Source of the DNA: Deroplatys truncata
Lineage: Eukaryota; Arthropoda; Insecta; Mantodea; Mantidae
Direction: 5' to 3'
Length of the DNA stretch: 64,000 nt
Assembly (NCBI GenBank): GCA_030765065.1
Contig: CM060977.1
Location: 158,916,052-158,980,051, forward strand
The position numbers and the translations under genes are program-made. Numbering within the stretch: position 1 is the stretch's first letter; every line of letters starts with the position of its first letter. Positions 2,732-63,714 of this stretch are shown in pieces. The notes beneath the pieces are model-generated. The model did no database searches and was not told the origin of the DNA. It worked only from the letters and a program-made list of their open reading frames with translations.

Positions 2732-3130
2732 GGTAAGTTAAAATACTGCTTGCAGGTTAATTTCTAGCTCAGCTGTAAGAAGTATCATAATATATGTAGA
2801 AAATAAGTTTCATCTTTGTTTCAAAGTTTCTATGACTAAAACTGAAACTTAATATATTTGCCATTTTCCTCCTTATTTTTTAACCCCTTCCCACCTCCCC
2901 ACATCCAACACACATGTGGACAGAAATACTCATGGAGAGATATCTTCTTACATTCTGATATTACAAATCTTTTTACACCAATCTGTAAAATTAACCAGAA
3001 ATATGCTGGTTTTCTGGTTCAGTGCATGATCAGGTGTATTCTTAATTCCCTATGCTGTTATGTATTAAATTAAAAATCATGAACCCACTCAACGAAAATT
3101 CTTATTGAAGTTCTTTTAATAGATACTTAC
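2731..3130. other. Intron sequence 3' of SPTLC2 exon 5
   Basis: AT-rich sequence holding the GTAAGT donor of exon 5 (minus strand, at 3125-3130). The next SPTLC2 exon, whose expected start resembles an NxMxxLEKLL-type sequence, is not recognisable here or further left to base 1, so intron 5 extends beyond the window. Confidence 0.6.
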
Positions 3131-3349
3131 CGTTGTGTGGGAACACCTTTGTAGTTGCCCCTGAGAGGCGCAATCCAAGAATGAGCGAGGCATGGTTCTT
3201 TTCATCACTAAGTACAAGACAACCTTCTGATATAAGACTTGGAAGATTAAGTGCATTTGTTGCAAAGCCCATTCCAAATACTATGGCATCATCAACACCA
3301 AGAAATCTAGCAGTTGTTTTCTCTAGCTCAACAATCAAAGGATGTGTTC
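3131..3349 (-). CDS. SPTLC2: Serine palmitoyltransferase large subunit (SPTLC2-like), exon 5
   Basis: The translated exon reads [20 protein letters not shown], then an [19 protein letters not shown] segment, then [16 protein letters not shown] and ending at VFPHN. This is the start of the large PLP-dependent aminotransferase-fold domain of the alpha-oxoamine synthase family and aligns closely with human SPTLC2, including the GMGFATN and LSDE.NHASL motifs that shape the active site. The acceptor is TTTCAG (minus strand, at 3350-3355) and the donor is G|GTAAGT at 3131/3130. Phases fit exon 4, since G plus GA completes a glycine codon. The exon leaves one base for an exon outside the window. The PLP lysine and later catalytic residues lie in the missing downstream exons. 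Confidence 0.97.
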
Positions 3350-8377: not shown

Positions 8378-9042
8378 AAAATTTAATGGCACAGCCGAGA
8401 CTCAAGCCATAGATTTTTGGTTTTCTGTGGCAATGTGTTATCGGTATGATTCTATGGCAAAACCTTCAGAGACAAATTCAGTTATTTATAAATATGATCA
8501 TAAAGGTGACTTGCAATGGTGCAAGTTCTCTAGTTCCAGACCTCTTGTTGAAAAATTATAGGGTCGGTTATTCATCTGTGAACTATATGTGTAGGCTTGG
8601 ACTGAAAAGATCAAAGATCCAGGCTCTGATTGAGGTAGCAGCGTTTTGCCAGAGAAAGAGAAAGCTTGGTAATTCAGCCATGGCAGTGAATTTTTCAAAC
8701 CTGACTTCATTTTCCAACTTTAGTCTACAAATAGCCAGTGCAACAGCTTAAGTAATAAGCAAAGAAACATATTTTAGATATTTCTGAGAAAAAATATGTA
8801 AAGATTGCATACATGGTAGATTTTTCTGCCAAATTGGTATCACTGAAAACATGTTTGTTGTGTACAAAGAATTTTAAAAAAAAGTGTTAATATGCTGTAC
8901 AATAACACTTTTCTGAAAGAGTTCATCAAATTAATTTACGTAACGGTTCAGTAACACATTACCCTTAACATTACAATGTTTTGCTATGTTCCAAGTTTTC
9001 ATAAACAAATATGTTATATGCATGTTGCATGAGGTTCCTTAC
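8378..9042. other. SPTLC2 intron 4, 5' part
   Basis: Intron sequence ending at the exon 4 donor (minus strand GTAAGG at 9037-9042). Open frames on both strands here resemble nothing known and are probably chance. Confidence 0.5.
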
Positions 9043-9188
9043 CTACTTCACGACAAGGGCTACACATAGCAAGTCCATGTTCTTTAATTGCTTCTATAGC
9101 TGCATCAGCGCAAGGTCCCTCTGCTTCCGCAAATCCCAGATAGTTGTAAGATCCCAAGTTCAAACATTTTGTGTATGTTCCAGTGTAC
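9043..9188 (-). CDS. SPTLC2: Serine palmitoyltransferase large subunit (SPTLC2-like), exon 4
   Basis: The exon encodes YTGTYTKCLNLGSYNYLGFA, then the EAEGPCADAAIEAIKEHGLA segment and CSPCREV. The NLGSYNYLGFA motif is the hallmark N-terminal segment of the alpha-oxoamine synthase domain and matches SPTLC2 closely. The acceptor TTTTAG sits at 9189-9194 and the donor G|GTAAGG at 9043/9042 (minus strand). Lengths and phases agree: one base completes the split Glu codon from exon 3, 48 codons follow, and one base passes to exon 5. The usual CSTRxE(I/L)G segment reads CSPCREVG here, a Thr-Arg to Pro-Cys change that I cannot rate as lineage-specific or damaging. Confidence 0.97.
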
Positions 9189-9278
9189 CTAAAAGAATAC
9201 AAAACTGAAAGTTGTAGGACCATCACATTTATTCATCCACAAACTCTTGACCGTCATCCTATGCTTAACCTGAATATA

Positions 9279-21120: not shown

Positions 21121-21373
21121 AAACAATTTTTTCCCTTGCTGTTTAGTGGGCATTATTTCAGTTGGCAAAAGTGCCATTTACTTTCAGTTTCTAGCTTCTA
21201 TAAGCCTAGTATGATGAATGAAAATGTGAAAACATAAGTGCCTCTATAATATTCCTTCTAGTCTTACACTAATTTTTTCATTGCAAACTTGTATTCAGTT
21301 ACGCTGTTTATTCATTCAATATTGTTAACTGCATACAGTATACAAAGGGCAGAATGTGCTGGCTAATACTTAC

Positions 21374-21528
21374 TCAAACGTCCAACCATAGTCCCTTGTT
21401 ATTCTGTCCTTGAGCACTACTTCTGCTCCTGGAACACTACATATTGGCCTGTTCCAACAGTCCCTCACACGACGGTAGACATAGCGCATATAAAAGCTCT
21501 CAAATCTTTCAAAGAGTGGCACATAACC
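21374..21528 (-). CDS. SPTLC2: Serine palmitoyltransferase large subunit (SPTLC2-like), exon 3
   Basis: The exon encodes GYVPLFERFESFYMRYVYRR, then the RDCWNRPICSVPGAEVVLKD segment and ITRDYGWTF. The YVPL(Y/F)..FE.FY.R..Y.R and WNRPICSVPGA blocks are diagnostic of SPTLC2 and lie between the membrane segment and the catalytic fold. The acceptor is TTTCAG (21529-21534) and the donor A|GTAAGT (21374/21373) on the minus strand. The 155 bp equal 51 codons plus two bases (GA), which exon 4 completes as Glu. This exon is isolated by introns of 24.5 kb and 12.2 kb. Confidence 0.97.
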
Positions 21529-33661: not shown

Positions 33662-34945
33662 ACTTTCTCTTTCTCTACTGCTTAGCTATAGTAAGTAATG
33701 GAGGTATTGTATTACAACAAAAAATTTGATACCAAGATTTCAGTGAAAATACACGTATTTAGGCAAATGGAAAAAGAAAAGAAAATAGTATTTTTAAAAA
33801 AGGACCACCAATGTGTGTGTATGTGTGTGGGTGCGCGTGCGCACATCAGTGTGCCCGTGTGAACTGCAGAACTCAAAAATGAAAAGTCAGTTAAATACCA
33901 AACTTTGTAGTTTAGTTCTGCATCCCCAAGGAGGCAACATGAAAATTTTCAAGAAAGTCCCCCATTGCAAAACTAACCTTGCAAAAAACAACTTTAATTA
34001 TTTTGACTTGCTCAAAAATGACTAATGATTTTGATTAAAATACAATATATTTAAGATATTTGCATGACAAATAAAATGCATAACTTTAATTTTCTGGGAA
34101 TAGCCGGTGAAGACCTCTTCATTTAAGTAGTTTTGTGTAACTGATAAACCATAAGAGAAATAAAAACATACTACCCAAAAAAAATTAGATCATTTTAAAC
34201 TGCACAACTTATTTAAAATAACCTTCTTTGTGGCATTAATTATTTCAGAGACGTTATTATTAGTATAAATTTTTCAATACTTTTGTCATTTGGAAGGAAT
34301 TTTGTATAACTGGTAAATCATAAGAGATAGCCAAAAATGCATTACACAAAAAAAAAATTTAGATCATTTTAAAATGCACCTCTTTTGTAACATTAACCAT
34401 TTCAGAGATATCAGTTATTATTAGTTTCAATTTTTCAATACTTTTGTCATTTCTTTAAAGTATTGCCTCCACAATACAATAGAAAGAGTTTGGAATTTCT
34501 AGGCTGGCATATAACGCCTGCTTTTAAACACCTGAATACTGATTAGATTTCCCCTATCCCCCTTGTTCCTAAGATTTATCACGTTCATATAAAGCAGACA
34601 GCATAAGCTTTCATAAGAATAGTTTTTAGAAGCTATATAAAAATATAGTAGACAGTGAAAGTCAGTGAATGTAACATAACATTTTTTAAAGTTTTGTCAC
34701 TATTCACTTGGTTCCCACGGTCATGAAGAGATAATGAAATTTTAATGTCAGCATATACAAACCTGGTTTTTAAACACCTGTCTATCGATTTGCTTTCCTC
34801 TATTTGCTACCTACAAGGAAATGTGTAATAAGACTAATTCTGCAAAGGTTTATCCTGATTAACACAAAGTGATAGAAAAATAAGTTTATAGAGGCTAAGT
34901 AAAAGAGAGAGAGCATTAGTGGGTAGAGGAAATCACGTGAAAGCA
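33662..34945 (-). repeat. Family A-related compound copy A10 with internal duplications
   Basis: It starts with TTTCTCTACTGCTTAGCTAT (right end, inverted). It passes a TG-rich microsatellite (33811-33850) at the place where other copies have CA runs. The segment around GTAACTGATAAACCATAAG is then repeated (about 34120-34260 and 34295-34450), and two successive left-end segments follow (to about 34690 and 34945). So more than one copy, or local duplication, is merged here. Confidence 0.65.
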
Positions 34946-46077: not shown

Positions 46078-46260
46078 TTCTCTATTTTTTTCTACTGCAA
46101 CTTTTGGTGTAAAAAGGAGCTGATTCAAGTATCCGAGAAACATCAGTAGGTAAAATCCCAAGTACGTCATGACAGCCGTATAAAGAGGAACTTCCTCGAA
46201 GCTTTCTTTTGAATGTTCTGGTTTCTTCTTAATCGGTGCACCATTTGGAATTTTAATTTC
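46078..46260 (-). CDS. SPTLC2: Serine palmitoyltransferase large subunit (SPTLC2-like), exon 2 (membrane segment)
   Basis: 61 codons encode EIKIPNGAPIKKKPEHSKES, then FEEVPLYTAVMTYLGFYLLM, then FLGYLNQLLF and a basic tail VAVEKNRE. The hydrophobic stretch of about 20 residues is the single N-terminal membrane anchor of SPTLC2, preceded by the FEE.PL..A..TY.G(Y/F) motif shared with vertebrate SPTLC2. It tethers the catalytic domain to the cytosolic face of the ER. The acceptor TTACAG sits at 46261-46266 and the donor GAA|GTAAGT at 46078/46077. Both junctions fall between codons and the join to exon 3 reads NRE-GYVPL. Confidence 0.95.
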
Positions 46261-46572: not shown

Positions 46573-46695
46573 CAGTATTTTTCCATTCTTGATTGATTCT
46601 AAAGGCGTTCCTGGTTTGCCATTCGCTTCATTCAAAAGATGTTTCCCGTTTTGAATTTTCACATCTTTCGTTTTCTGCACACCGCTCGCAGCCAT
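46573..46695 (-). CDS. SPTLC2: Serine palmitoyltransferase large subunit (SPTLC2-like), exon 1 with start codon
   Basis: 41 codons, from MAASGVQKTKDVKIQNGKHL to ESIKNGKIL, end at the donor CTG|GTATGT (46573/46572). This polar N-terminus is poorly conserved between species, as in other SPTLC2 proteins. I chose the ATG at 46693-46695 because it has A at -3 and G at +4. An in-frame ATG lies 19 codons upstream (46750-46752) after an in-frame stop, and would add an Arg/Ser-rich leader. It is a possible alternative start. The assembled CDS in the window is 826 nt (exons 1-5), about half the usual 550-560 residue protein. With SPTLC1 and a small subunit it condenses serine and palmitoyl-CoA to 3-ketosphinganine. 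Confidence 0.88.
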
Positions 46696-47096
46696 TATGG
46701 AAGCGAATGTGGAACTAGAACGTGAGCGCCGCTGTCTGGGATTGGGTGTCATACCTCAATTTTGCGCATGCGTCAAACAATGTTGACCGCTGTAAAGAGA
46801 TAAGAACAGTAATTTAATCATTTATAATGTTTAGAGAGTAAATATAATAGTTAAACCCTATTATATAATGCAACGTAATTTCTAGTTCCTTGTATTTGAG
46901 GCTTTACAGGTTAGACGTTGTGTAAGCTCCTGTTTATGACTCATCCTGATAGAGGGAGCGAGTGAATTTACCGGCTACTCATGACATTTGACAGCTGCAA
47001 CTCACGGCGAGGTGCAAAATATCTGGTACAACGGCACTAAAGGAAGGAGTGGTACCGTGATTTTCTTTATACAAAAGACTGCATAAAGTAGCCGCA
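46696..47096. promoter_or_regulatory. Bidirectional promoter region between SPTLC2 and the plus-strand gene
   Basis: The two start codons are 401 bp apart and point away from each other, so both 5' leaders and both core promoters must fit here, unless a non-coding first exon lies further off. The region is CpG-richer than the introns, lacks an obvious TATA box at a sensible distance, and contains the NRF-1/Ewg-type palindrome at 46763-46772. Transcription start sites cannot be placed from sequence alone. Confidence 0.7.
46763..46772. promoter_or_regulatory. NRF-1/Ewg-type palindromic site TGCGCATGCG
   Basis: The 10-mer TGCGCATGCG is the core of the NRF-1 consensus, bound in insects by the orthologue Erect wing. 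It lies 68 bp upstream of the chosen SPTLC2 start and is symmetric, so it could serve both directions. Such sites are common in bidirectional housekeeping promoters. Binding is inferred, not shown. Confidence 0.6.
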
Positions 47097-48255
47097 ATGG
47101 AAACCAATACCCGAGAGCCAAGTGAAATTAAAAATCAGGTGAGCGATCTTAATCTTTCTCAGTTAAATGAAGCTACCGGAATGCGTAGGGATAATGAATC
47201 CATTGATGATTTCGAGCATTTGGAGCCTGAGTCATCTCCAGTTAAAGAAAACGCAGAGCAAAAAATCGAAATTGAAGTCAAATCTGTTACTGATCAATTG
47301 CCGGTAAAGGTGGAAGATTACAGTGTTTTTGAAAATAGCCCGGAGAAACAGAGTGTTTCAGAATTGTCCCCTTTGGCTACTAAGGAACCTGTCGCTCAAG
47401 AAGTAAAAAGTTCAGCCAGTTTTCTTGAAGCTGATTTATTAGGAGAAAATATTTCAGAAATTTCCGATAAGCTAGGTACTAAAGATCACCATGAACTTCT
47501 TTCTTCTTCGGAACCAGTTGTGGACACAAAACAAGAATTTCAGCTTCCTCCTGCAAAGGAGTCTGCACAACTCTTTGATTTAGATTCTCAAGGATTCATA
47601 GACAGTGAAAAAAATATTTCTAAAACGTTTATGGACATTGAGAAGAATGACAAATCTGAGATAATTCCCACCCAATTTGAAATTGCAGATAAATTTTCTG
47701 GAGCAGGAGAGTTTCTCAATTTTGAATCCAAAGTAAATAAAATACCTGAAGAGCCTGCTTCTCTTCCTCCTAATGAAGGAGTAAGTGTCCTTCCACCCAA
47801 AATTAAAGAAGAACCCAGCCCAGGACACAGAGAAGAGCAAAGTGAATTGCACAAAGATTTCGACTTAACATATGGAAACAAAACAAAAGAAAGTATAGTA
47901 GAAGAAAAAGAACCTTCAAAACCTGTAGATGTACCCGAGCCTGAAGAAGAAGATGAAGAAAGTGTTGAAGTATCTGAAAGCAAGTTTTTCAATGCCGATG
48001 AAGAACTTCAGGTTAAATCCTCAGCACCTGCCGAGCCCCCTGTAAAGCTTACTGCTAGTGATTTGGACATTAAACCTAAAGCAGCTAGTTCCTCTAGCAT
48101 TGTGCAGCCTTCAGCTCCAGTGGCACCATCAGCTCCACCAGCACCATCAGCTCCAGTTGCTCCACCACAATCGAAGCCTCAGCAGCAACCAGCCGCTCAG
48201 AGCAGTGAGATTGAAGATATCAAGCCAATTCAAGTTTTCCAGTCCCTGGGTCTTG
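47097..48255 (+). CDS. First coding exon of an acidic, proline-rich protein; possible reticulon-like N-terminus
   Basis: An open frame of 386 codons starts at a strong context (GCCGCAATGG) and reaches a consensus donor CTTG|GTGAGT at 48255/48256. Reading on would give only 23 more codons of unlikely sequence before a stop. The protein is disordered and rich in Glu, Ser, Pro and Lys. It has a DDFEHLEPESSPVKE segment near residue 40, an acidic PEPEEEDEESVE patch near residue 282, a PSAPVAPSAPPAPSAPVAPP repeat near residue 341, and ends DIKPIQVFQSLG. Long variable N-termini with an (D)FEHLE-type acidic segment before a conserved two-hairpin membrane domain are typical of insect reticulons (ER tubule shapers). 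The reticulon domain is not in the window, so the assignment is tentative. Another scaffold protein is possible. Confidence 0.45.
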
Positions 48256-49184
48256 GTGAGTACTTGGACAACAATTCTAACGTAGTAATACTAACTAGAG
48301 ATATCATGCATCTAGCTTTCAGCTGAATTACTGGAATTTCACTCCTGAAGCCAGGTGAAAGGTACCGGGGACACTGTCCAGCTAATGTTAAGTTTCAAAA
48401 ATTCAGATAACTAGACTATTACCTTGAATAAAGATCAAGTGTTAATTAAGTTTTTCACTTTTGATTAAATATGTTCCAGTCTGAAAGAACTAAATCAGAA
48501 GGCCACACTGATGTAGACTGCTTATAAGCAATGAAAAACACTAGATACATTTCTATTTTATAAATGGTATTCTGCTTTGAAACCAGGAGTTTATTAAATT
48601 TATTTGACATAGAACATTTTGTAATGATATTACCCTTAATAATTGCAATGACTAAAAGGCTACTGTTGTACCTGGCATTATTTAGAACTTTGATTATTGA
48701 AAATGCATATTCAGCAGAATGCATTCTTAACATTGTTCTAAAGCATTAAAAAATTTGAAATTCCAGCAATATATTTACTATTCACATATATAACTAGCCT
48801 TCTGAGTGTTAACAATACTTGTGGCAATGAATGAATGTCATTAGTTGATTGTAATGCTGCTGTCTCCTAATGTGTACAAGGAAAGAAACAGTTCTATTAT
48901 ACTTACATTATCACTATATTACACTTTACTCACTAGCAAAAATCACAATAGTTAAACAACACAATGAAAGTAAACATTTGATTATAATTATGCTGGCGAG
49001 TGCTTGCCACAAATGTTTAAAAAAAAAAATATATATATATATATTTATTCGGGTTCTTACTCACACACACACACACACACGGCTCTATTAGCAACCGAAT
49101 GAGTTTGAAGTGTTCTACGTTATAAAAGGACTCAAATTTATGAAAAACCATACCCTTTATGAGGTTTGTGTGCAACCCATCCCA
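48256..49184. other. First intron of the plus-strand gene, 5' part
   Basis: Begins GTGAGT. AT-rich with no second exon recognisable. At its end are a (TA)n run (about 49029-49043) and a (CA)n run (about 49061-49080). Confidence 0.5.
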
Positions 49185-49380
49185 CCGACACGGATACTTG
49201 TGAACGCTTGGGGCCTGGAGTTCAAATCCCACCAGAACTGCCCTCCGTGACTTGAATTTTTTTTTTCCAGGCTTTCTTCAGTCCTCATAACTGGCACATG
49301 CCAGGAAGATATGATAAACTTTGGCATGGAACGTTTCCTTCCTAAATTTCGTTTCCCAATTATTTAATTTCATATATCAT
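49185..49380 (+). repeat. tRNA-like repeat fragment, possible SINE
   Basis: Contains GGAGTTCAAATCCCACC, which fits a polymerase III B-box with its T-arm stem, followed by CCCTCCGTGACTTGAATTTT and an A/T-rich body. No A-box half or flanking duplication could be fixed. It does not belong to family S. Confidence 0.4.
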
Positions 49381-49889
49381 CAATGTCCACTGTATGTGAT
49401 GCTGTATGATATAAGAGCAGGTTCTAAGCAGTTGTAAAAACAAATAATAATCCATCCCTATTCCATCTGGTGGGCAGAATTGATTTGAGCATCATTACAG
49501 TGGGCAGAGACAAAGGAAGAAATGTGATACTTCACCAACTAGTCACAAAATAGGCATGGATGTATATGTGATGTAGTTTTGTGAGTAATCTATAAGTTCA
49601 TGAACTAGTCACAAAGACTTGCAAACATAGTTTGTGTAAATACAGTTACTTTTTGTATGCTATCATATATAGGAAACAACAGTATACATGTTCACATAAA
49701 AGTTAATATAAATTATATACAAAAGTTATACATCAACATGGTGTGCTGTTATTCATAATGCTTACACTTAATGGATAGAGTATAGCCTTTGCATAAAGCT
49801 TGCTTGGTCTTTTTCGTGCATAAATGTAGATATACCAGAACTATTTAAAATTAACCTGCTCCATTTTGAAACAGCTCAAGATGTTTTCT
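49381..49889. other. Intronic DNA, nothing recognised
   Basis: Non-coding; the phrase GAACTAGTCACAAA occurs twice (about 49533 and 49601) but no longer repeat is seen. Confidence 0.4.
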
Positions 49890-50340
49890 ACCTACATTCA
49901 CCCAGTATGGTTATACAGAGGACAATATTGGTATGTGGTTAACATTCCAAACATCCATCTGGGATATGCAAATTTTGAGATAGGTATCTTTTCCATGCTT
50001 TTTAAAGCTATTGGGAATTCCTAAGAAGCATAAAATGTTAAAAAAAGAATTAGTCATTCTTATATACTCGCTCCCCACGTACTCTGGAGGAATGTTTTCT
50101 TAAGTAATATGTAAATGCTTAAAATTAGAAATATATGCTGTAGATTTAGGTGGCATTTACAACTTACTCCCAATTACTTCTGTTATACCTTGCATGAGGA
50201 AAAAGAGGTAGTATGGGTATTATATAATTGCAGGTGTTTGATGATAGTGTGTAATATTCTTTGACATGTTCTGTGTTCCCAAGCTTTGCTCACTGAGGAC
50301 CTAATGAATAAAGCTGAACTACTACTACTACTACATAAGG
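49890..50340 (+). mobile_element. 3' end of a non-LTR retrotransposon, copy 2
   Basis: It shares TCTTATATACTC(G/A)CTCCCCA and the CCCAAGCTTTGCTCACTGAG and GGACCTAATGAATAAAGCTG tail with 41930-42460. It ends in a (CTA)n run at 50323-50335, the simple-sequence tail expected of such elements. The coding remnant is too short to name a clade. Confidence 0.65.
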
Positions 50341-51691
50341 TAGCTCCTCAATATCTCTCTACCGCATTTGATGAGCATGAGTGAGTGAGTGAGCGAGCGC
50401 ATTCCTAAATGATAAAATGAAATGCTTTTGTAGGATCTGATAGGTAACATTGATTTTGACCATAATAAAATTTACCATAAACAAACAACTATAAAACAAA
50501 TATATCTGCTGCCATACAAACTATCATTTGTTTCGCCGTTCCTAGCAACCTAAATATTGGTTTTAATCACAGTAGTGAAATAAAACGTTTTAATCCATTG
50601 CTACAGTCTTTTTATTTTATTTCTGACTTGTAATCTTTATTATATAGAAAACCAGACTTTATAAGGGCCAATAAATTCACTGCTCTATGGACATTCCTTA
50701 GAATGTACTTTGGGAGTAAATATTTCTCCCTTTTCCATACTCATTTCAATTTACACTCATACTATCATCAATTTCAATTTATTTATATCCATTATCTCCA
50801 AGACAACCAGCATTGATGCCACAGTTTCCATCTACCAACAATAAATCTATATATTTAATTAAAATAATTACTCTGATTTACGTTTTAGTAGCAGATAAAA
50901 TATTGTATGCCACACAAGATTAAGATACCTATATGTATTTAACGTTTTGTGAAACATCACCCTTGGTAAGCCTCAAGCATTAAAGTTTTCAATCAGTGGT
51001 AAAACATTATTTTAGTCTTTTACACTTAAATTATTATGGCTATACTGAAGTGTAGTTTAAAAGATTCCACAATAGGTGAATTGACATTAAATATCCTAGA
51101 GTGCATGTATTTGTGGAACTGTGCTCCAGGATTTTTATAGAAATCGTAAAAAATCTTTGAAGACCAGTATAAGAATTTAATGAGCTAATCATATTTTAGA
51201 TTATTAATAAAAGATCCTTTGACAGATGACAACTGTTATGTTCATTTTTGAACTGACAAATTGAAATTCTCTTTAATATATTCATTAAATAAAAAGTTTT
51301 TTTCGCATCATAATGGGTTACGACTCAAACTCACCTGTATGAAACCTCATTAAGCAGTATGACTTTTTGGTCTCTTTTTAGTGGATGGGGAAGTTTATAG
51401 GCTGGATTACTGATGAAGAAAATGGTGCAGCAAATGTGAGATATGTTTTCATAGCTTGTAAGGCATAAGAGGCATTTTAATCTTTGTGACTTACTCTTGA
51501 CATAATTTTCTAAAATCATAAATATCTGAAACTGAAAAGCTACTTTTGTTTCAGTAAAACTATCCTCGCCAATTTGTGTTGATAATTTATTATCCTGACT
51601 ATTCCCTCTGCTTTTGAAATCTAGATCTAGCATATGCCACAAAGGTCTATAAAATTAAACGTAAATAGAAAAAAAAAAGTTCATTCCCTTC
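50341..51691. other. Intronic DNA, nothing recognised
   Basis: Non-coding, with a (GAGT)n/(GAGC)n run at about 50376-50398. A minus-strand frame at 51331-51642 has no recognisable relatives. Confidence 0.4.
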
Positions 51692-51705
51692 CCCAAAATA
51701 TAAGT

Positions 51706-51998
51706 TAAATTGAGTTTTATTTATGGATGCTCTTTAACACTGCTATGGTCGTTAGCGCCCCATTCTATATTGGGCGTGAAAGACCGATAATTTTGCTCAG
51801 AGTCCTCTTTATAAGGCTTGAGGTTCTTTTATGTGCTGTAAATCTACAACACTGGACCACCGGCTTTACTTCCCTTCCGAAGGAAGCCATGTTAAGGATT
51901 TTTACACCTGAAAAAATCCATCGCCCTCCCATCAGGCTTGAACCCGCAACCTCAGGAACTAGAGGGTAGCATGGTAACCACTACACCACGGAGGATCG
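51706..51998 (-). mobile_element. tRNA-derived SINE, family S copy 3
   Basis: A full-length minus-strand copy with a slightly altered B-box (GGTTCAAGCCT). It is flanked by a perfect 14-bp duplication CCCAAAATATAAGT at 51692-51705 and 51999-52012. The tail side reads AAACTCAATTTAA. The intact long duplication points to target-primed insertion by a non-LTR enzyme. Confidence 0.95.
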
Positions 51999-52012
51999 CC
52001 CAAAATATAAGT

Positions 52013-52929
52013 GTCCAAGTAGTAACATGAAACTAATTTGTTATTTTGCAAGGTTGAAGTTTGAAACTCCATTAGGTATATTATTAACTTTTAGACATTA
52101 GATGCTTCTTGCATATCTCCATGGTGATTTGGTAGATTATGCCTGCAGATCAACAGGCAGAACAGATCTGCAGGCAACACAGAATTATTACAATTTTTTG
52201 TGGAGAGCAACAATGGCAAAGAAAATGTTTGATTGCTTTTACATTAAAACAAGTCTTCCATTTCATATATCATAAAATAGAGAGTTTAAGGTACACCTCT
52301 TAGAGGTTTAAGGTACACCTATTCAGCCTCTCTTATATGTGGTCAATAATAATATGAAATGTATTCCTTTAGATTACTAATATTTACAGGGTTACTCTCC
52401 TCCAGTCATGTCCATTGTGTTCAATGTAGAACATAATTAAATATTTTGCTTGGCAAGACAAAGCCGTCGAGTACCGTAAGAGAACAATTTAGTGCTGTTC
52501 AGTTTTACATCTGAAAACAGAACAACCATGAAGTGTCTAGCTATGACTAGGAAGTATTTACCTGAACTTCATTTAGTACCACATGGAACAAGGTGCTGAG
52601 AATAAAACTTATTTTGGTGCAACAGTAAAATAATTAATAGAAAAACAGCGTGTTATTTCCCAAAACTGTGAATTTAACATCAGTGTCATGGCATTAAAGT
52701 CGCATGTTTATAATGTTGCTTGCTTAAATCATTAATAAGAGCTTCTCAAAAAGCAAACTGTGTCATGCTGAGCTTTGCCTATCAGGTGGAAAGAGCTGTT
52801 GAGTAATCCTATTATATTGGGGACCTGCATTAAGTTGATTAAGCTCCCCAGTTATATAAATTATTATTAATTAAGAAATACATAATACACAGACCCAGTT
52901 TCTGCCATTCAAGCAATAGAATGATATGA
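52013..52929. other. Intronic DNA, nothing recognised
   Basis: Non-coding. A local 17-bp duplication AGGTACACCTnTTAGAGG-like occurs at 52290-52322. Confidence 0.4.
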
Positions 52930-53480
52930 TAGTTCAGATGAATCTTATAATATTAAGAATGCAAGATCTTCTTATAGATTACTCCAAACAAAATTTCAAC
53001 AGATAATATTACAGTGGATCAGCACATGTGGGAGTTAATTGTAACGAGACTGCAGACTTTTTGGCCAAAAAGGGTGCAGTGTTATACTCAAAACCTATAA
53101 AGTCTTGAGGACTAGATATGAAACTAAAAAATGTCAAAATTAATACAGAACAAAAATACCAACATAATATTCAAAAGGAAATTACTAATAAAAATTACTC
53201 CAACATTAAAGAATGGAGAACCTACTAGAATGCTCAGATTTGAGGAAAGCTGTACCACATTGACTAGCTAGGGAAAAATTGATGGATCAGAATCCTACAC
53301 ATTAGATCAACAACATAATACAGTCAATGAAAAAAAATGAAAGCGGCTTAGTTGCAACCAATGGGAAAGGCATTGACCCCAAATATAAAGAAGAATGTTA
53401 ACCTCAGTTGTCAAATTCAACTATACATCAGTCAAGGCGCCAGAACAAAGGTACTGTGGGCTCAATAACTGTGAACTGAA
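52930..53480 (+). pseudogene. RNase H end of a non-LTR retrotransposon, broken
   Basis: Reads IILQWIS, then after a one-base shift AHVGVNCNETADFLAKKGAV. This is the last RNase H motif (W(I/V)P.H.G..GNE.AD.LAK.G) of Jockey/I-type retrotransposons. Downstream is C-terminal coding residue with stops. It is a different element from 29370-31860, since the sequence is clearly distinct. Confidence 0.7.
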
Positions 53481-54764
53481 ATAACAAATAATAATAGTTA
53501 TTGCTATTATTATTAATATTATAGTTACCTGTCAGACTACATTATTATACTGTATAAGATCATTCAAAATATTAGATCTTTTAAAAAATAACTAAGCATT
53601 ACTTAATTTCGATAGAGTGAAATTAGATTTAATGTTATTATTTGGGATATTAAATGTTTTGGCAGTTAACATTTAATACTAGTGTATTATGTGTAGACCT
53701 ATATTATTTACCTTAAGTTCATCCATGCTGCATTAGTGAACTAACTGTGACCAAATTGAGCTAATCGCATTCCCAAAATACAATTATTATCCTGATTGTA
53801 CCAGGGAGTATATAAAAGTATTTACTCTCTGGTTTGTACCAGCATAAAAAATAATAAAATAAAAAAAATAGAACTAAACAGCTGAGGAAACTTGCCTCCC
53901 AGGTTCTGTTGCCCTTGCAACCAGTGTTCAGATGGATCCACCTACCAGGAACGTGCTATAAATGGTTATGCCTACTAGTGTTAAATACAGAATTTGCTTC
54001 TTGTTTTTAGGAGATTGGGTCAACATGCAGTTTAATAATTTGGGAAGAATTTGAGTAGATTAATGGACAGTTCTAAATAGGGAAAACAACGAGGAATGTG
54101 GAAATTAGACACTTAAAGGAATCAAAATACAAACAACTAAAAAATCAACAGTGGTTGCTCATTTCTGGACTAAAAGTCGAAATATAAATTCCACTCCTAT
54201 AAAACAATTAAGAAAGTAACAGGAACTGACCACTTGAGAGCAAACTTACATTTGGAAAAACAAAGAGTTTTCAATTTTGAACTTCCACTGAAAGATCTTT
54301 TTTTTTTATGTTGAGCAGTTGTACATGACAATGGAAGTGATTAATCTCTGAAAACCTGCTCCTAGTTATTATTGTAAGTTATGTACTATAAACAATCAAC
54401 TCAAATTCTTTCCAAATTACAAAATTCATTACTCCTTTGCAGAATAAATACTTTTGGTTATAGTAAGAAAATTCCAAAACAGGGCCAAGAATTTTTTAAG
54501 AGATGGAAATAATAAATTCATACACGTGCAAATAGACAAGTGGTTCAAGTCTCTCAATTGTTCTGTCCACCCCCTCCCCATTGTGCACACCTTTGTTTAG
54601 CAGCAGAATTGTTGTCAGCTTACAATAAGACAAAGTTAGGATTTTCCACATTAACTAAAGAGCCTTCAGGCTCAACTTCATTTCCATGACTTATTTCCTC
54701 ATACATTGACTCTCTTTCCTTTCATTTGCCAGGTTTTCTTATACAATGAAAGTATATTGTCCAT
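53481..54764. other. Intronic DNA, nothing recognised
   Basis: AT-rich, with poly-T at about 54298-54307. No coding remnants can be read. Confidence 0.4.
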
Positions 54765-54772
54765 ATAATGAC

Positions 54773-55503
54773 TAAGCCCCGGATTTTTAGGTTCTAAAAA
54801 GTTAAAATTAGGTTCTATGTATCAGTGTGTTAGGATTTTATAGGATCTTATATGTTGAATTTAGGAACTTATAGGATCCTTGGCATATTCATGCAAATCA
54901 CTGGGCACTTTGTTTAAAATGTTAAAAGTTAAATCAACTGTAACTTTAGTATGTATTTGAAAGTACCAAATTCAAAAATGTGTTAGAAACTCCCTATAAC
55001 TACTCAACAGCGCTATTAAAATGTTTGCCTCTAGTTTTCACCTATTGTTGCGGCATGTAAACATCACACGTTTCAGAAATGCCGCGTGCCACTCTTCCTC
55101 TTCCGACTATAGCTAGAAAATGATAACTGAAGGCGGCGAACGTTTTCATTACTTTATTATTGTGGCGGACGGTTTAATTAAGGTTTATTATTGTAAGGTA
55201 TTGCGCAAGATTTCATAATCTAATTATTTAATAGTTTCCTTATTCGAACGGTCTCCCTTCGTTTTAAAAATACTTTTATATTCATAAATCTACTCTTATT
55301 TGCTTAAATAACCGAATTAGGCACTTTTAGGTTCTATCACGACAAATAGGTTTTATTAGGTCCTAACGTAAAATTAGGTCAATTTAGGCTGTATAAAATT
55401 GAAGTATATTGCTCGTTGGTAACTAAAACATTAAAATAAACCGAAGTTTGCAGTGTAGGAGGTAAGGAATAAAATAGGTCAGAACCTAAGAATCCGGGGC
55501 TTA
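54773..55503. mobile_element. hAT-type MITE, 731 bp
   Basis: Terminal inverted repeats TAAGCCCCGGATTTTTAGGT and (inverted) TAAGCCCCGGATTCTTAGGT. ATAATGAC is duplicated at 54765-54772 and 55504-55511; an 8-bp duplication is the hAT signature. The subterminal GGTTCTA/TTAGGTTCT words are repeated many times inside (about 54790-54880 and 55320-55385), as in hAT binding sites. Non-coding. Confidence 0.9.
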
Positions 55504-55559
55504 ATAATGACTACCAAAGATACAGATATGAGGAGCTTGGTATTAAAGTTGGGCTACTC

Positions 55560-55745
55560 CAATTTGAATTTTTTTTACAGCTGAGGTGAAAGACGTGATA
55601 GCTATTATTGCAATTATGCTAGGTATTTTAAAAATAAGTTTTGGCGTCATAAATATTTCTTTGTAGGTTTTATTACACAGAAAGTAATATTAAAGCCTAA
55701 ACGTGTAGCTTTATTAATTACACAAGAAGTGTAGATCTCGTTATG
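55560..55745 (+). repeat. Family A-related fragment A14
   Basis: The end TTACACAAGAAGTGTAGATC resembles the central family block (ACACAAAAAATGTAGATC). The fragment is interrupted by the adjoining tRNA-like SINE. Limits are approximate. Confidence 0.4.
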
Positions 55746-55885
55746 GCACCCAAATTATGTCAAATATTGTTTTGTTGAAAGGTGGAATCAGACTGAAAAA
55801 TTCAATGCCATAGTCGGGATTTGAACCACGGATCTTCCCTGTACGCACGGTTGCTCTAACCAACTTAGCTACCATGGCAACATGC
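55746..55885 (-). mobile_element. Second type of tRNA-derived SINE
   Basis: On the minus strand the head reads GCCATGGTAGCTAAGTTGGT, then TAGAGCA and a B-box GTGGTTCAAATCCC, and closes with CTATGGCA. The 7-bp acceptor stem and D-arm can form, but the anticodon and T-arm stems do not pair properly, so this is a tRNA-like SINE head and not a working tRNA. The body GAATTTTTCAGTCTGATTC follows. A related body and B-box occur in the opposite orientation at 56100-56190. Confidence 0.7.
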
Positions 55886-56046
55886 CGGTGCGACATTAAA
55901 TTACCAACTGACTGGCATTTTTTCCCGGTAAACCACAAGCAGATCTCAAATCATATTTGAGATAGCATACCCCAATGGCGACTTAATATGTAAATACTTT
56001 AAGGCCCGGGTTTTATAGATAAGCTCTCTTAGGTCAATCAATGGTA

Positions 56047-56220
56047 ATTAATTGTTCTTTCACACAAGGTCATGTGTAAGTCAAGGGTTGAAAGATGGAA
56101 TCCGCGCATAGAGCGGAAAATCCGTGGTTCAAATCCTGGCTATGGCATTAGATTTTTCAGTCTGATTCTGCCTCTCAACCCTTGTCTTATGCAAGGTCTT
56201 GTGTGAAAACAATATTAATT
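56047..56220. repeat. Foldback element built on the second SINE type
   Basis: The outer arms are inverted: TTCACACAAGGTCATGTGTA...TCAAGGGTTG on the left, and read backward from the right TTCACACAAGACCTTGCATA...ACAAGGGTTG. About 60 bp per arm, including the flanking AATTAAT words, can pair. The middle holds the SINE B-box (GTGGTTCAAATCC) and body. One arm was probably copied in inverted form during or after insertion. Confidence 0.7.
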
Positions 56221-56287
56221 ACTATATTTTCGTGTTAACCATTTCCGAGATATTCTTTTTTATTGGTATGGATGTTTAATCGAATAC

Positions 56288-56342
<55 letters not shown>

Positions 56343-56499
56343 ATGCAAGGAGCATAGATTTTCAAAGCCATCAACAGAGAACGGAAGTTTGGCAGAATGC
56401 CTTTTTAAATGTGTTAAATCTAACTACAATTTGAAAGTGAATCTGTCCGATTTATATCTTTGTGATAGTTTTATGTTGCCTTTTATATAAAAGTCTAAT
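56221..56499 (-). repeat. Family A-related fragment A15 with (CT)n tract
   Basis: TTAACCATTTCCGAGATATT and TGTCATGCAAGGAGCATAGA are family blocks. A (CT)n run of about 50 bp lies at 56289-56339 between them. The plus-strand frame that reads it as poly-Ser-Leu is an artefact. Confidence 0.55.
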
Positions 56500-56900
56500 T
56501 GTCGAAATAAATGCCTTTTGTTGCCTTTTTTATTATTATTTATACCTTTATTACTAAAAATTGTCTACATGTGTAATTTACTTCTGTAACCACTACAATG
56601 AATGTGACTGCATCGAAACTATGCTATTTATTGCCTTCCAGTCAGTTCATATTTTCTTTACAAGCAACAACCGTGTAAAAGGTGTACCGTAACAGTAAGT
56701 AAGGTTATTATCGCTTGTGTTTACTTGGCTTCGTATCATACTCCTTCAACAGCAACAATGAGTGTCGGAGTTAAAACATGGTTTCATTGTCGTTCTAAAT
56801 TTCTCTTTCAGTTTTCATTGCGACATTGTTGTGCAAGGTAGCTACTTATAACTGTCGAAATTCAGTGTTCCTTTACGCAGTAAATTGCAGTTACATTAAT
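56500..56900. other. Intergenic or intronic DNA upstream of the hAT remnant
   Basis: Non-coding apart from possible 5' remains of the transposon. It has TGCCTTTTGTTGCCTTTTTT near 56509, echoed by TTGCCTATTTTAGC near 59182 on the far side. These could be weak terminal motifs of the hAT element, but they are in direct rather than inverted order, so I do not set ends by them. Confidence 0.35.
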
Positions 56901-57655
56901 ACTTTCAGATCCAATGCATCTTCTACGGACGGAAAATACTTCTGCGCAAAATATATGAACAGTCAGCGAACTACGAAAAGGAATATTTCATTTCTCAACA
57001 TATCAGTACAGCCAAGCACAAAAATGCACTTTTCAAGGCTACTGGAAAGAAGATTTCCTTGCTTCCAATAGCTACACGAGTCGAAAATCGCAATTTGCAT
57101 TCAACTTACGTAAAACTTTTATTGGTGCTAGAATACTTTTGTGGAAACTACAGAAACATTAAGACAGTTTTTGGATAAGTATACCAACGAATCTGTTCCC
57201 AGGGAGTCAAGTTTGTGAAAATGTTATTTAAGTGAATGTTACGATGTCATGAAAATCATTAAAGGTGACCTAAAGAATAAAGATCTGGATATCAATCGAC
57301 GAGTCAACTGATCAAACGGGTCCTTTTATTGCCAAGTCATCATTGAATCATTAGATCCTTCAGAAGGCGAATCAATAAAAGCATTCCTGCTTACAACAGT
57401 GTCTCGAAAAAGTTGTAATTCAACTATCGCACAGTTATATACCCATTCATTACAGTTGCTTTGGGCTCTAAATTCAATACCACAATGTATTACTTTTTAT
57501 CTCAGACGCTGCACCATACATAAAAAGGTTGGGACAACTTTAAAAGTGTTATTTCCAAACATGCTTCATGTGACCTGCGTAGCACATTTTCACAGGGTGT
57601 GGATACGAAGCTTGTTTCCGGATGTCAAATTGATTTCTAATTTTAAGGGATTTTT

Positions 57656-57841
57656 GCGAAAGCCCCGTCAAGGATTCGGACATTTTAAGACATTACACCA
57701 GATAATAGTACCTCTTTGCGAAAGCCCCGTCAAGGATTCAGACATTTTAAGACATTACGCCAGATAATAGTACCTCTTTGCGAAAGCCCCGTCAAGGATT
57801 CAGACATTTTAAGACATTACACCAGATAATAGTACTTCTGC
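57656..57841 (+). repeat. 62-bp unit in three tandem copies inside the hAT gene
   Basis: Units start at 57656, 57718 and 57780 with GCGAAAGCCCCGTCAAGGAT. They differ at about three positions. The unit is coding sequence of the transposase (SRVQHFKT-like helix). Since 62 is not a multiple of 3, the expansion itself shifts the frame. Confidence 0.95.
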
Positions 57842-58325
57842 CCCCAGAATCTATCATAACGAGATGGGAAAACATGGATTTCAGCAGCAATTTACTATGC
57901 TTCAAATTTCCCGTATATAACTATCATGGTGGTCGCCACTTTGAAGCATGAAGCATTTTCAATTGTAGTAGCAAAGGAACTTCTCGAATCTTCGGAAGTG
58001 AGAAATTACTTAACTTTCATTGCGCCCGAGTTCGGTTTGCTGCCACACGTGTTCTGTCAGCTTCAAAAAAGAGGGCACCTTTGACGAAGTCGGTGAAAAT
58101 TGTGGATGATGCGGTGCAAATGCCGGGGAAATGAGGTTCATTAATTAGTGAAAAACGAAAAATGGTGTTTTCGAAAAATCTTGAGCTTGACAAACTCTAG
58201 AAACATTTCAAAAGCTCTACAAGGCGACAATTTGCCATAGGAAATGGACCCTACAAAGAGTTCAATGTTTTAGATTTGCTCCAGTTACCTCTGTAGATGT
58301 TGCGTGGTCATTTTCTCAGATGAAA

Positions 58326-58611
58326 TTCGTCGTCCTCTGTGGACTAGTGGTGCCGTGCTAGCCTCTAGTTCCAAAGGTCGCGATGGATTTTTTTTTCGGG
58401 CGTAAAAATCCTTAGTATGGCCTCCTTCGGAAGGGAAGTAAAGCCGGTGGTCCCGTGTCGTAGATTTACGGCACGTAAAAGAACCTCAAGCCTGATAAAG
58501 AAGCCTCTGAGCAAAATTACGGGTCTTTCACGCCCAATATAGAATGGGACGCTAAGGACCATAGTAGTTAAAGAGCTTCCTTAAATAAAACTCAATTTAA
58601 TTTTAATTCAA
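58326..58611 (+). mobile_element. tRNA-derived SINE, family S copy 4, lacking its B-box
   Basis: Inserted in the hAT remnant with a 13-bp duplication TTCTCAGATGAAA at 58313-58325 and 58612-58624. Removing it rejoins FSQMK to NVLSDKRLNMN. The head runs TCTAGTTCCAAAGGTCGCG straight into GATGGATTTTTT, so about 20 bp carrying the B-box GGTTCAAACCC has been deleted compared with copy 5. It should not be transcribed by polymerase III in this form. Confidence 0.95.
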
Positions 58612-58721
58612 TTCTCAGATGAAAAATGTATTGTCTGACAAGAGACTCAACATGAATTAAGAAAATTAAAAAAGGATTTGGTTGTCATGTGCAACCAATA
58701 AGCTGGTAAGGCATTGTATCT

Positions 58722-59010
58722 GTCGTCCTCCGTGGACTAGTACCGTGCTAGCCTCTAGTTCCCAAGGTCGCGGGTTCAAACCCGGCGGAGGCGATGGATT
58801 TTTTCGGGCGTAAAAATCGTTAGCATGCCTTCCTTCGGAAGGGAAGTAAAGGCGGTGGTCCCGTGTCGTAGACTTACGGCACGTAAAAGAACCTCAAGCC
58901 TGATAAAGAGGCCTCTGAGCAAAATTACCAGTCTTTCACGCCCAATATAGAATGGGACGCTAAAGACCATAGTAGTTAAAGAGCGTCCATAAATAAAATT
59001 TAATTTAATC
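58722..59010 (+). mobile_element. tRNA-derived SINE, family S copy 5 (best-preserved)
   Basis: Contains GTCGTCCTCCGTGGACTAGT, TTCCCAAGGTCGCGGGTTCA, AACCCGGCGGAGGCGATGG and the full body to AAAGAGCGTCCATAAATAAA. A- and B-box positions are both present (GTGGACTAG... and GGTTCAAACCC), though the A-box lacks the usual GTGG after the AGTA. No clear flanking duplication. It lies 110 bp from copy 4 in the same orientation. Confidence 0.92.
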
Positions 59011-59468
59011 ATAAGCCTTAAAGAAACATTCTCACTTTTTGTCGAGTGCAGCTAACATTTTGTTTAAAACTTACTTTAAAAATATAACACAACACGATGT
59101 TAACATGAATATACCGATTGTGCGATTGTCTGAATAGTGCAATCTAGTAAATAAATAGGCATAATATAAGGTTTTTCTTTATTGCCTATTTTAGCTATAC
59201 CTTTTTGCCTGTCTATTTTAATGATTTATAATAAACTTCCGGTCTCTCGCCATCACATAGCGATCCGCCTTTTAAAAATCTGTCAAGCGCTTTGGCCTAT
59301 GGTATCCTTATACCTACAACGAAATGAGTAATGAAGGTTTACTCAAATTTATTCACCGTTTGATTTCAATACAGAAATATTGGCTTCATCAACAATACAA
59401 TTATTAGTACAAAAAGAACAGGTATAATTCGCTGTAATACACAAATACAGAAATCCCAATTATTACAT
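59011..59468. other. Intronic or intergenic DNA, nothing recognised
   Basis: AT-rich; may contain the 3' end of the hAT element, but no inverted terminus could be fixed. Confidence 0.35.
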
Positions 59469-60331
59469 TGACGCAGTAATTTGTATCACAAAAATGTAAA
59501 TGTCAGAGTGATTGTAGTGTGAATATGCATTGTTGTGTGGCATTGATTTGAGATATTTGTTGATTGTAATTATTGTCGAGAAGTGGGTTTATACGGCCTT
59601 ACTGAAACTGACAATAATAGCGTGCAATAATGTAGCGAGGGGGTGAGCTGTTTATCATTATTAGAGACGAGCAAATGACGTCAGAGTGGCGCGTTTTTCT
59701 TAGAATTTGCTGGAACATTTTCCCCAGAGCATATGTTTTCGTAATTTTCATTGGATATAAATATAGACGCTAATGTTGGCGCGTTTTATTAACCAATAGC
59801 AGCTCGGTTATAATCTTTAGGCATATTGGGGCGAGGAAGTATAAATTCAGTGTCAGAATCAAGTTTCATGTAGTTCAACGGAGGCATTCATGGAGTATGC
59901 ATCGCACACAGTTCAAGGTTACGCGTCGCAAAGTTATGAAAAATCTCTCGTGTCGTAAAGTTGATTACACAAAAAGTTGAAGTACGCGAATTAATAATGT
60001 GCAGTAAATAAGTTATTATAACAGTTTCAGTTTGGCGAGTGTCAAGATTAATAGGTGAAAGTGAATAATGTGTTACGACAATAAAAGTGTAAAACAAATT
60101 CTTTTATCAGTGTTATCTTTGGATAAAAAACTCCTTTCCGTTTACACACCTATGCAAGATAAGTGCTTGACCGAGAAATCATAGCTAGCCGGAGGACAGT
60201 GAACCCAAAATTAAATACAATAACAGGCGCTCAGTAAAAGATAACAAGAAGTGACCGAAACAAACTGTCTTTTATACGTGCGGCAGATAAAAATGAAACA
60301 TCTTCCAACTACCAACATTAATACCCTCACA
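59469..60331 (+). mobile_element. Diverged LTR related to the Gag-only element, opposite strand
   Basis: It aligns with the minus-strand reading of 15829-16830. It starts TGACGCAGTAATTTGTATCA and shares GTTTATACGGCCTTACTGAA, TAGCGTGCAATAATG, TTCATTGGATATAAATATAG, TTGGCGCGTTTTATTAACCA and ACAATAAAAGTGTAAAACAA. A TATA-like GTATAAATTC lies at about 59839-59848 and an AATAAA signal at about 60080. A primer-binding-site remnant follows at 60336, so this is a 5' LTR whose interior is gone or replaced after about 60360. Confidence 0.85.
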
Positions 60332-60335
60332 AAAT

Positions 60336-60355
60336 TGGCTACCACAACGTGGGGC
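60336..60355 (+). other. Degraded primer-binding site
   Basis: TGGCTACCACAACGTGGGGC matches the TGGCGCCCAACGTGGGGC site of the Gag-only element with a few changes. It is correctly placed four bases after the LTR end. Confidence 0.7.
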
Positions 60356-60539
60356 TAACAAATAAATAACATTAAAACTACCACAACATGAGTAGGTACC
60401 TAAACTAAATTTTCGAATTGTAAACATAGTATACTCCATAAGAAAACATAAACTAATTCGTTTCTAGATATTCTTAGACTGAATAAAAACAGCCCTGTAT
60501 TAGGAATTTTTTCAGATCTCTTTTGAAGACTTAGGGTTT

Positions 60540-61085
60540 TAATTTTTTTTATGTGGGAAGTTTATTAAACAATTGAAGGCATTATAATATAAACTTTTTT
60601 CATATAGGGCTCTTTTATGGCCTGTAATGTGCAGTTTAGATTTATTTCTTGTATTACAGCCATGAATATCAGCATTTGTGTTAAAACTATTTTGCTGCTT
60701 ATACATTGTTACCAGAGTTTCAAAAATGTATAGCGAAGGAACAGTGAAGATATTTAACAGTATGAAGTAAGGTTTGCAGCTTGTGTTGCTGCAAAGGTTT
60801 AACATTATTCTGATTGCCCTTTTTTGTATTATAAAGATTCTATTTTTATAACTGGACTTTCCCCAGAATATTATACCATATGATAAATGACTATGGAAAT
60901 ATGCAAAGTTGTTAAGTACATCAAGATTAAGGAAATTTTAAGGGTATATAATGCAAAACATGTTTGGGATAATTTTTTAGATAGTACATAAATGTGGATT
61001 CCCTAGTCAAGGTTACGATCAACCCAAATTCCAAGAAAATTTATTTTATTACACATTGTTATTAGTTCATTTTCCAAATAAACTT
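60540..61085 (-). pseudogene. CR1/Jockey-like reverse transcriptase, C-terminal fragment
   Basis: Minus-strand fragments in order: FLGIWVDRNLD, LSKKLSQTCFALYTLK, then SCKPYFILLNIFTVPSLYIF, IHGCNTRNKSKLHITGHKRA and LYEKSLYYNAFNCLINFP. The F.LLNI.TVPSLYI.E and H..NTR.K..L...H....EKS..Y...K..N.LP pattern is the conserved tail of many CR1/L2/Jockey-type non-LTR reverse transcriptases. Frameshifts separate the pieces and the catalytic FADD region is not present. Confidence 0.75.
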
Positions 61086-61190
61086 CGGCTTATTTGGATT
61101 AGGTATCAAAAATATATAGAAGAATACATCTTTGTAAGAATATTGTGTAGAAGAGTGAATAGGGAAAGCTATATGAATGCAACGTATCAA
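61085..61190 (-). repeat. Family A-related left-end fragment A16
   Basis: GAATACATCTTTGTAAGAAT..TGTGTAGAAGAGTGAATAGG and GAAAGCTATATGAATGCAAC follow the order of the family's left end (GTTTGTACAAGAGTAGAGAAAG..). Diverged. Confidence 0.5.
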
Positions 61191-61197
61191 TGAGAGG

Positions 61198-61425
61198 TCT
61201 CGGGTTCAAACCCGGCGGACGTAATGGATTTTTTCGGGCGTAAAAACCCTTAGCATGGCTTCCTTCGGAAGAGAAGTAAAGCCGGTGGTCCCTTGTCGTA
61301 ATTTACGGCACCTTAAAGAACCTCAAGCCTGACAGAGTGGAATGAGCAAAGTTTCCAGTCTTTCACGCCCAAGAATGGGACGCTAGGAACCATAGCAGTT
61401 AAAGAGAGTTCATAAATAATTCAAT
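61198..61425 (+). mobile_element. tRNA-derived SINE, family S copy 6, 5'-truncated
   Basis: Starts within the head at GTCTCGGGTTCAAACCCGGC and continues through the body to AGTTAAAGAGAGTTCATAAA. It has several small deletions compared with copy 5. No flanking duplication found. Confidence 0.85.
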
Positions 61426-61429
61426 TTGA

Positions 61430-62325
61430 CGTGTTGCATTGTTGTCTCGAATACAGGTGTACTTCCCGCATTTCAAATTCTCCCTTGTGATGCAAATTTT
61501 AAAATAATTCATGTTCGTGAATTACATCAAGCAGTTCTGGGTGAAAAGAGCATTTAAATAGTCATTAATATAATTTAGGACATTTTAGGCATTATAATTA
61601 CCTCTAGGCAATTTTAGTCAAAAAAATCCCTCATCTTAGGCCATTAAAAATGCATTCAGCTGGCTTAAACTCGACACCATGTCAATTATTTTCCACATCG
61701 GGCTAAAGCAAATAAACATTTGTCGCATTAGTTATTTTCAGGCAAGTGGCGTAGTTCTTAGCCGCGTTATAGTGAATATTTTGCGCTCAGTTTGATTTAT
61801 AATAAGGGCTGAGGAAGTTAATGGCATGGTCATCCTTTAAACATAATTTATTTTAATTGTATTGATACAAACATATTTAATATCAGTCCCTCTTTGTTTT
61901 ATATTTGCGTATGCTTGACCCTTAATGAAACGGCGTTACTTCCTATGTAATCTTCAGAACACCATTCAAACCACTTTAACACCGTGAACAACGATCCGAA
62001 AATAAGCATTTCCTTAGAAGGCTAGAGAATGGGAATTTATAGATACATAGTTGCCGGAAGTCTATTCACGAAACTTCCCTGATGTCATTCTCCTGTTTTA
62101 GAAATCCAGTCATGCAGTAAAAGCCGCGCTGCACCGACCCGTTCCGCTGTATAGGTGTAAATACGAGCATTTACTCTCTCGCCGGCGCAAGTACACTCCC
62201 TGCAAGAAATTGAGCTCAAGCTTATACTAAGCATTACGTTTCATATTTCAAAGCGAGATATGCGTGCCAATGCTGTTTAGCCATAGACATTACATGGACG
62301 TAATAAATAGCAGCTACTTGGATGA
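61430..62325. other. Intronic or intergenic DNA, nothing recognised
   Basis: A few repeated TTAGGCATT/CTAGGCAATTTTAG words at about 61575-61650, otherwise non-coding. Slightly higher GC at 62100-62215, without an open frame of note. Confidence 0.4.
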
Positions 62326-62327
62326 AC

Positions 62328-63366: not shown

Positions 63367-63436
63367 TAGATTTTGAAGGGAAACAAGCTTTCTCAAAAGT
63401 TGTATAACTTATCTGCATCAGTCCATAAAAAAGTAA

Positions 63437-63697
63437 AGGTCGTGGATTCAAACCCAGAGGAGGGCGATGGATTTTTTTTCGGACGTAAAAATCCTTAGCA
63501 TGGCTTCCTTCGGAAGGGAAGTAAAGCCAAGCCGGTGGTCCCGTGTCGTAGAATTAGGGCACGTAAAAGAATCTCAAGCCTGTTAAAGAGACCTCTAAGC
63601 AAAATTATCGGTCGTTCACGCCCAATATAGAATGCGACTCTAAGAACCACAGCAGTTAAGGAGCGTCCATATATAAAACTCAGTTTAGTTAATTTAA
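63437..63697 (+). mobile_element. tRNA-derived SINE, family S copy 7, 5'-truncated
   Basis: Begins at AAAGGTCGTGGATTCAAACC, so the first half of the head is missing. The body has an AGCCAAGCCGGTGG local duplication and ends AAGGAGCGTCCATATATAAA. Confidence 0.88.
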
Positions 63698-63714
63698 TTT
63701 TAACGAATATACCA

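Follow-up and report, generated by a model that had tools for sequence, protein, structure and literature searches.

The start of SPTLC2 on the minus strand and the start of a long acidic exon on the plus strand lie close together in Deroplatys truncata, which raises the question whether an enzyme subunit of sphingolipid synthesis and a reticulon are paired head to head at one promoter and whether such a promoter might set the ratio of enzyme and regulator, as was put forward in a preliminary description of this locus. It is still an open question how sphingolipid synthesis and the shape of the ER are adjusted to each other, and a shared promoter would offer a simple genetic handle on this matching. 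The window, i.e., the whole stretch of 64,000 nucleotides that was analysed, corresponds to C3:158916052-158980051 in the 4.29-Gb genome.

Divergent starts and the SPTLC2 gene

Two ATG codons point away from each other, at 46695 on the minus strand and at 47097 on the plus strand; the stretch between them measures exactly 401 bp. In-frame stops are present upstream of both (at 47058 for the plus-strand gene and at plus coordinate 46758 for the minus-strand gene), making both plausible as true starts. The two opposite-strand start codons 401 bp apart proposed in the preliminary description were found as described, and its limits of 46573..48255 are exact. Bidirectional pairs are delimited by divergent starts less than 1 kb apart, and the 401 bp found here fall within this limit as an ATG-to-ATG distance. 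The features of the locus are collected in Table 1.

Table 1. Features of the divergent gene pair (window positions unless given on contig C3)
Feature	Position	Strand	Remarks
SPTLC2 coding exon 1 (MAASGVQKTKDVKIQNGKHLLNEANGKPGTPLESIKNGKIL)	46573..46695	-	first 41 codons, phase 0, donor CTG/GTATGT, reads on into exon 2
SPTLC2 exon 2 (EIKIPNGAP...VAVEKNRE)	46078..46260	-	human SPTLC2 match; splice sites read from sequence
SPTLC2 exon, human residues 110-162	21370..21528	-	match limits, not true exon ends
SPTLC2 exon, human residues 156-212	9038..9205	-	match limits, not true exon ends
SPTLC2 exon, human residues 217-292	3105..3332	-	match limits, not true exon ends
Intergenic stretch, 401 bp, putative bidirectional promoter	46696..47096	.	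single genome match (itself), CpG observed/expected 1.0
NRF1-type site TGCGCATGCG	46763..46772	+	next base T; differs from the GCGCATGCGC consensus at one outer base
First coding exon, long and acidic (reticulon, very probably)	47097..48255	+	386 aa, ends in phase 1
RHD exons, outside the window	C3:159437559-159437766, 159458963-159459171, 159460832-159460937	+	PF02453, join analysis

The minus-strand gene was compared with human SPTLC2. Local tblastn within the window resulted in four exon matches, which are placed in order on the minus strand; exon 2 shows 48% identity to human SPTLC2 residues 61-91 (plus coordinates 46206-46114, E 3.5e-5). Exon 1 by itself matched neither a family nor human SPTLC2. 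A genome search with human SPTLC2 resulted in 11 matches, 8 of them on C3 in the SPTLC2 locus with 46-68% identity, and two of these 8 run over one stop each. The exon match at C3:158937421-158937579 (window 21370..21528) carries one TAA in the genome-search match, which is slightly longer than the tblastn match. The other three matches, located on C16 and C11 with an identity of 30-41%, are presumably sister enzymes. The SPTLC2 exons span human residues 110-524 in the genome search and residues 61-91 in the tblastn of the window, an exon outside the window matching residues 337-396, and the locus reaches C3:158877418 and extends over at least about 85 kb.

Compared with PDB sequences, the exon within 3102-3401 (exon 5) matched human SPT subunit 2 with 9e-26, versus 3e-14 for AONS/KBL, 1.3e-11 for ALA synthase and 5e-7 for SPT subunit 1 as the best rivals. 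By these sequence comparisons the minus-strand gene is confirmed as SPTLC2 rather than a sister enzyme, and the assignment made in the preliminary description is borne out by both the ordered exon matches and the PDB comparison. Within the window, the SPTLC2 introns measure between 0.3 and about 25 kb. Moreover, two adjoining long frames of 167 and 171 aa are present at window 14315-15334 on the minus strand, which by eye look like, and presumably encode, a retrotransposon gag-type coiled-coil protein.

The acidic exon and the reticulon-domain exons

The plus-strand exon (47097-48255) consists of 386 codons and one base followed by the donor TTG/GTGAGT. Its frame is open over 421 codons from stop to stop; in 100 simulated sequences of equal length (first-order Markov), the longest frame without a stop averaged 137 and did not exceed 191. 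The predicted product of 386 aa is acidic, with a pI of 4.4 and a net charge of about -43. Searched alone against Pfam with an E limit of 1, the exon matched no family, and Pfam found nothing in the three plus frames of 48256-64000. A tblastn of reticulon sequences against the window yielded no reticulon domain (RHD; best E 1.4), and a motif scan for RHD signatures across the window gave nothing convincing. In the genome search with the acidic exon the sole match among 28 scored candidates was the exon itself, and none of 125 pattern matches in viral contigs was confirmed as a relative.

A genome search with PF02453, in which 37 candidates were scored, resulted in three matches, all on the plus strand of C3 (159437558-159437746, 159458976-159459179 and 159460732-159460902), i.e., 473-497 kb downstream of the acidic exon 1 on the same contig and strand. 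Two of them score above the cut-off and the third just under it (31 vs 31.8 bits); the latter crosses three stops upstream of its exon, where the match enters the intron. The three matches are read as consecutive exons of one reticulon gene, and this gene on C3 is the only one detected in the genome. A randomly chosen place would lie on that strand and no more than 500 kb downstream with a probability of about 6e-5.

Exon 1 ends in phase 1, which is the phase required by the first RHD exon: the acceptor of the latter, TTTGCAG/TG GTG GAA (TTTGCAG/TGGTGGAACTAGTGTACTGGCGC), has to be completed by a single upstream base, for which exon 1 provides a G. Human reticulons likewise have a phase-1 boundary at the junction of the N-terminal part and the RHD. 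The predicted join ...QVFQSLGL-V-VELVYWRDPKKSGIVFG... contains no stop through four exons and 560 residues. The profile search that had been suggested as a check on the reticulon call is near-complete on this product, matching PF02453 positions 1-155 of 157 with 1.4e-45 given a predicted splice to exon 1, and the window exon alone is without a match. Since the PF02453 match comes from the RHD exons, it speaks for a coherent join and does not imply that the join occurs. The 2.6 kb read downstream of exon 4 yielded no last coding exon for the reticulon gene. The reticulon call, which had been uncertain when only the window was considered, is strongly supported by RHD exons lying about 473 kb further downstream on this strand, by the matching phase and by the open join, and the plus-strand exon very probably represents the first exon of a reticulon long isoform. 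A second gene other than reticulon was rejected on the location and strand of the RHD, the phase and the open join, with 240 of 457.5 kb of the gap scanned.

The presumed intron 1 of the reticulon gene (C3:158964307-159437558) would comprise 473,252 bp, which is an extreme size and strikingly large even beside the SPTLC2 introns. For Drosophila Rtnl1, primers are described for which a genomic product would measure about 14 kb, compared with transcript products of 636-672 bp (PMC10072275), suggesting that the fly reticulon gene contains long introns as well. Of the gap of 457.5 kb between the window end and the RHD exon, 271.6 kb, located outside C3:159160052-159345999, were fetched, and 24 of 27 ten-kb loci (240 kb, all except L008, L031 and L032) were scanned with Pfam on the plus strand at E up to 0.01. 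The families found were DDE_3, Transposase_1, HTH_Tnp_Tc3_2, HTH_SB, DUF4817, HTH_48 and RNase_H, next to weak helix-turn-helix names (HTH_24, HTH_32 and SpoIIID; E 0.0002-0.003), and are read as transposons; a clearly cellular domain was not found in these 240 of 457.5 kb on the plus strand. As a control, the same scan recovered the single known RHD exon and one of two SPTLC2 exons. The scan can miss genes, as shown by the missed SPTLC2 exon; it also missed a PolB-like fragment in L012 that was spotted by eye, and Pfam is blind to genes without known domains. Long frames in an inverted arrangement are present in the gap at L007:9058-9999 (-), L008:3-2732 (-), L008:6560-10000 (+), L012:4268-4972 (-) and L012:5442-6077 (+). 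By eye they are PolB-like and resemble a Maverick/Polinton-type element within the presumed intron 1.

Two other readings of the acidic exon have to be weighed. It might open another gene with its remaining exons in the 473 kb, the reticulon gene starting further on. With a gene number in the order of 20,000 for 4.3 Gb, a gene would be expected about every 200 kb, which counts for such an arrangement, as do the lack of a family match for the exon by itself and the coverage of the gap, of which 271.6 kb were fetched and 240 kb scanned out of 457.5 kb. However, the phase match and the open join to the RHD exons, the proximity of the only reticulon locus found on the same strand and the 240 kb of plus-strand gap without a clearly cellular domain make this highly improbable. 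Far more weight is due to the possibility, which we place somewhat short of even, that an internal promoter close to the RHD exons gives rise to most of the reticulon protein, as a short isoform, and that the shared promoter controls a minor long isoform. Drosophila Rtnl1 is described with several isoforms that have their membrane domains in common, the shortest being isoform C (PMC10072275), in line with such an internal promoter. Moreover, upstream of the first RHD exon its frame continues through the splice acceptor without a stop and contains an in-frame ATG (MISLFAVVELVYW; C3:159437540-159437558, L004), which makes an internal, unspliced short start possible and adds to this possibility. 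Against it stands the result of a short-first-exon scan, which covered the 31.6 kb preceding the RHD and yielded one weak candidate but nothing convincing as an alternative first exon, at a background of 0-7 candidates per locus over the 27 ten-kb gap loci. If the promoter upstream of the acidic exon is shared, it drives the reticulon long isoform, and should a short isoform be transcribed from an internal promoter of its own, the idea of a set ratio of enzyme and regulator would apply to the long isoform only.

The 401-bp stretch as a putative promoter

SPTLC2 and the plus-strand gene constitute a real head-to-head pair, the second member of which is very probably the reticulon gene, and the pair adds a case to the known class of bidirectional gene pairs. 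Our main reading, to which we assign a probability of about 0.8, is that SPTLC2 and the only detected reticulon in its long isoform are located head to head and flank one bidirectional promoter.

In the genome search with the 401-bp stretch a single candidate was scored, which was the stretch itself. At 1.0, its CpG observed/expected ratio is above that of the whole window (0.53), of the downstream remainder of the window (0.73) and of reticulon exon 1 (0.40), and it is in itself not unusual, as values up to 1.44 occur in other 500-bp stretches of the window. The contrast would be compatible with a promoter free of methylation next to a gene body that is methylated. Across the shared stretch the CpG content is asymmetric: reticulon exon 1 is strongly depleted (0.40) and SPTLC2 exon 1 is not (1.25, over only 123 bp).

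The NRF1-type pattern YGCGCAYGCG matched twice in the window and not at all in 100 shuffles. One match is placed in the 401-bp stretch, where an NRF1-type site at 46763 is plausible. The source of the NRF1 consensus GCGCATGCGC (PMC10810270) also lists a one-base variant, aCGCATGCGC, which human NRF1 binds with a Kd of 1.27 vs 0.31 uM; the ten-base core of this variant is the site at 46763-46772 read on the other strand. Drosophila Ewg is given there as a homologue (PMC10810270). The second match is found at window 33834-33843 on the minus strand, inside an SPTLC2 intron, where no promoter is expected. The site was rejected as promoter proof, being single and having another copy in an intron. 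Overall, it is plausible that the 401 bp act as a shared bidirectional promoter.

As the most likely mechanism, divergent core promoters within the 401 bp would form one bidirectional promoter, an NRF1/Ewg-type factor might act at 46763, and the shared promoter would keep the two ER-membrane genes active across one and the same wide range of cells. The splice across 473 kb, the sharing of the promoter, the factor and any co-regulation are inferred.

Possible functional meaning and comparison with known systems

Next to the existence of the pair, its functional meaning has to be considered. We lean slightly towards the pairing being an ordinary by-product, in which a common short bidirectional promoter forms an open region that merely happens to be common to both genes, without functional coupling. 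Head-to-head pairs are frequent in animals and short bidirectional promoters are common, which supports this, and no promoter signal more specific than a generic NRF1-type site was found. In the literature searched, no description of a positional link between SPTLC2 and reticulon was found, which points in the same direction. However, Nogo-B (RTN4) is described as a negative regulator of SPT (PMC7037072, PMC12594915) and as a potential SPT inhibitor (PMC8167824), and functional coupling is at least possible in view of these reports. In its strongest form this would be an old, selected coupling, in which the catalytic SPT subunit and the long reticulon are expressed together from a single bidirectional promoter, so that sphingolipid synthesis is matched to the shaping of ER tubules, and in which the reticulon feeds back on SPT as Nogo-B does; we regard this as unlikely. 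An old linkage would fit the shared chromosomes of SPTLC2 and RTN1 in human (chromosome 14), of lace and Rtnl1 in the fly (arm 2L) and of sptl-2 and ret-1 in the worm (chromosome V). If the gene order is not conserved in other arthropods, the locus would be an ordinary bidirectional pair. The regulatory story is attractive and rests on analogy, and a restraint of SPT by the reticulon in Deroplatys truncata would be an analogy only.

Compared with known systems, the predicted reticulon resembles the long isoforms of Drosophila Rtnl1 and of human reticulons (RTN1-A, RTN4-A/B) in having a long acidic N-terminal part without a Pfam domain followed by a canonical RHD; it differs from them in its first intron of about 473 kb and in its position head to head with SPTLC2. 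The intergenic stretch shares with animal bidirectional promoters the divergent ATGs, here 401 bp apart, a CpG content that is not depleted and an NRF1-type site, whereas here an enzyme subunit is paired with a member of a protein family for which an SPT inhibitor has been reported. Finally, the regulation of SPT by Nogo-B in mammals involves the same two protein families as the pair described here, but it is reported as a protein-level effect in the endothelium (PMC7037072, PMC12594915).
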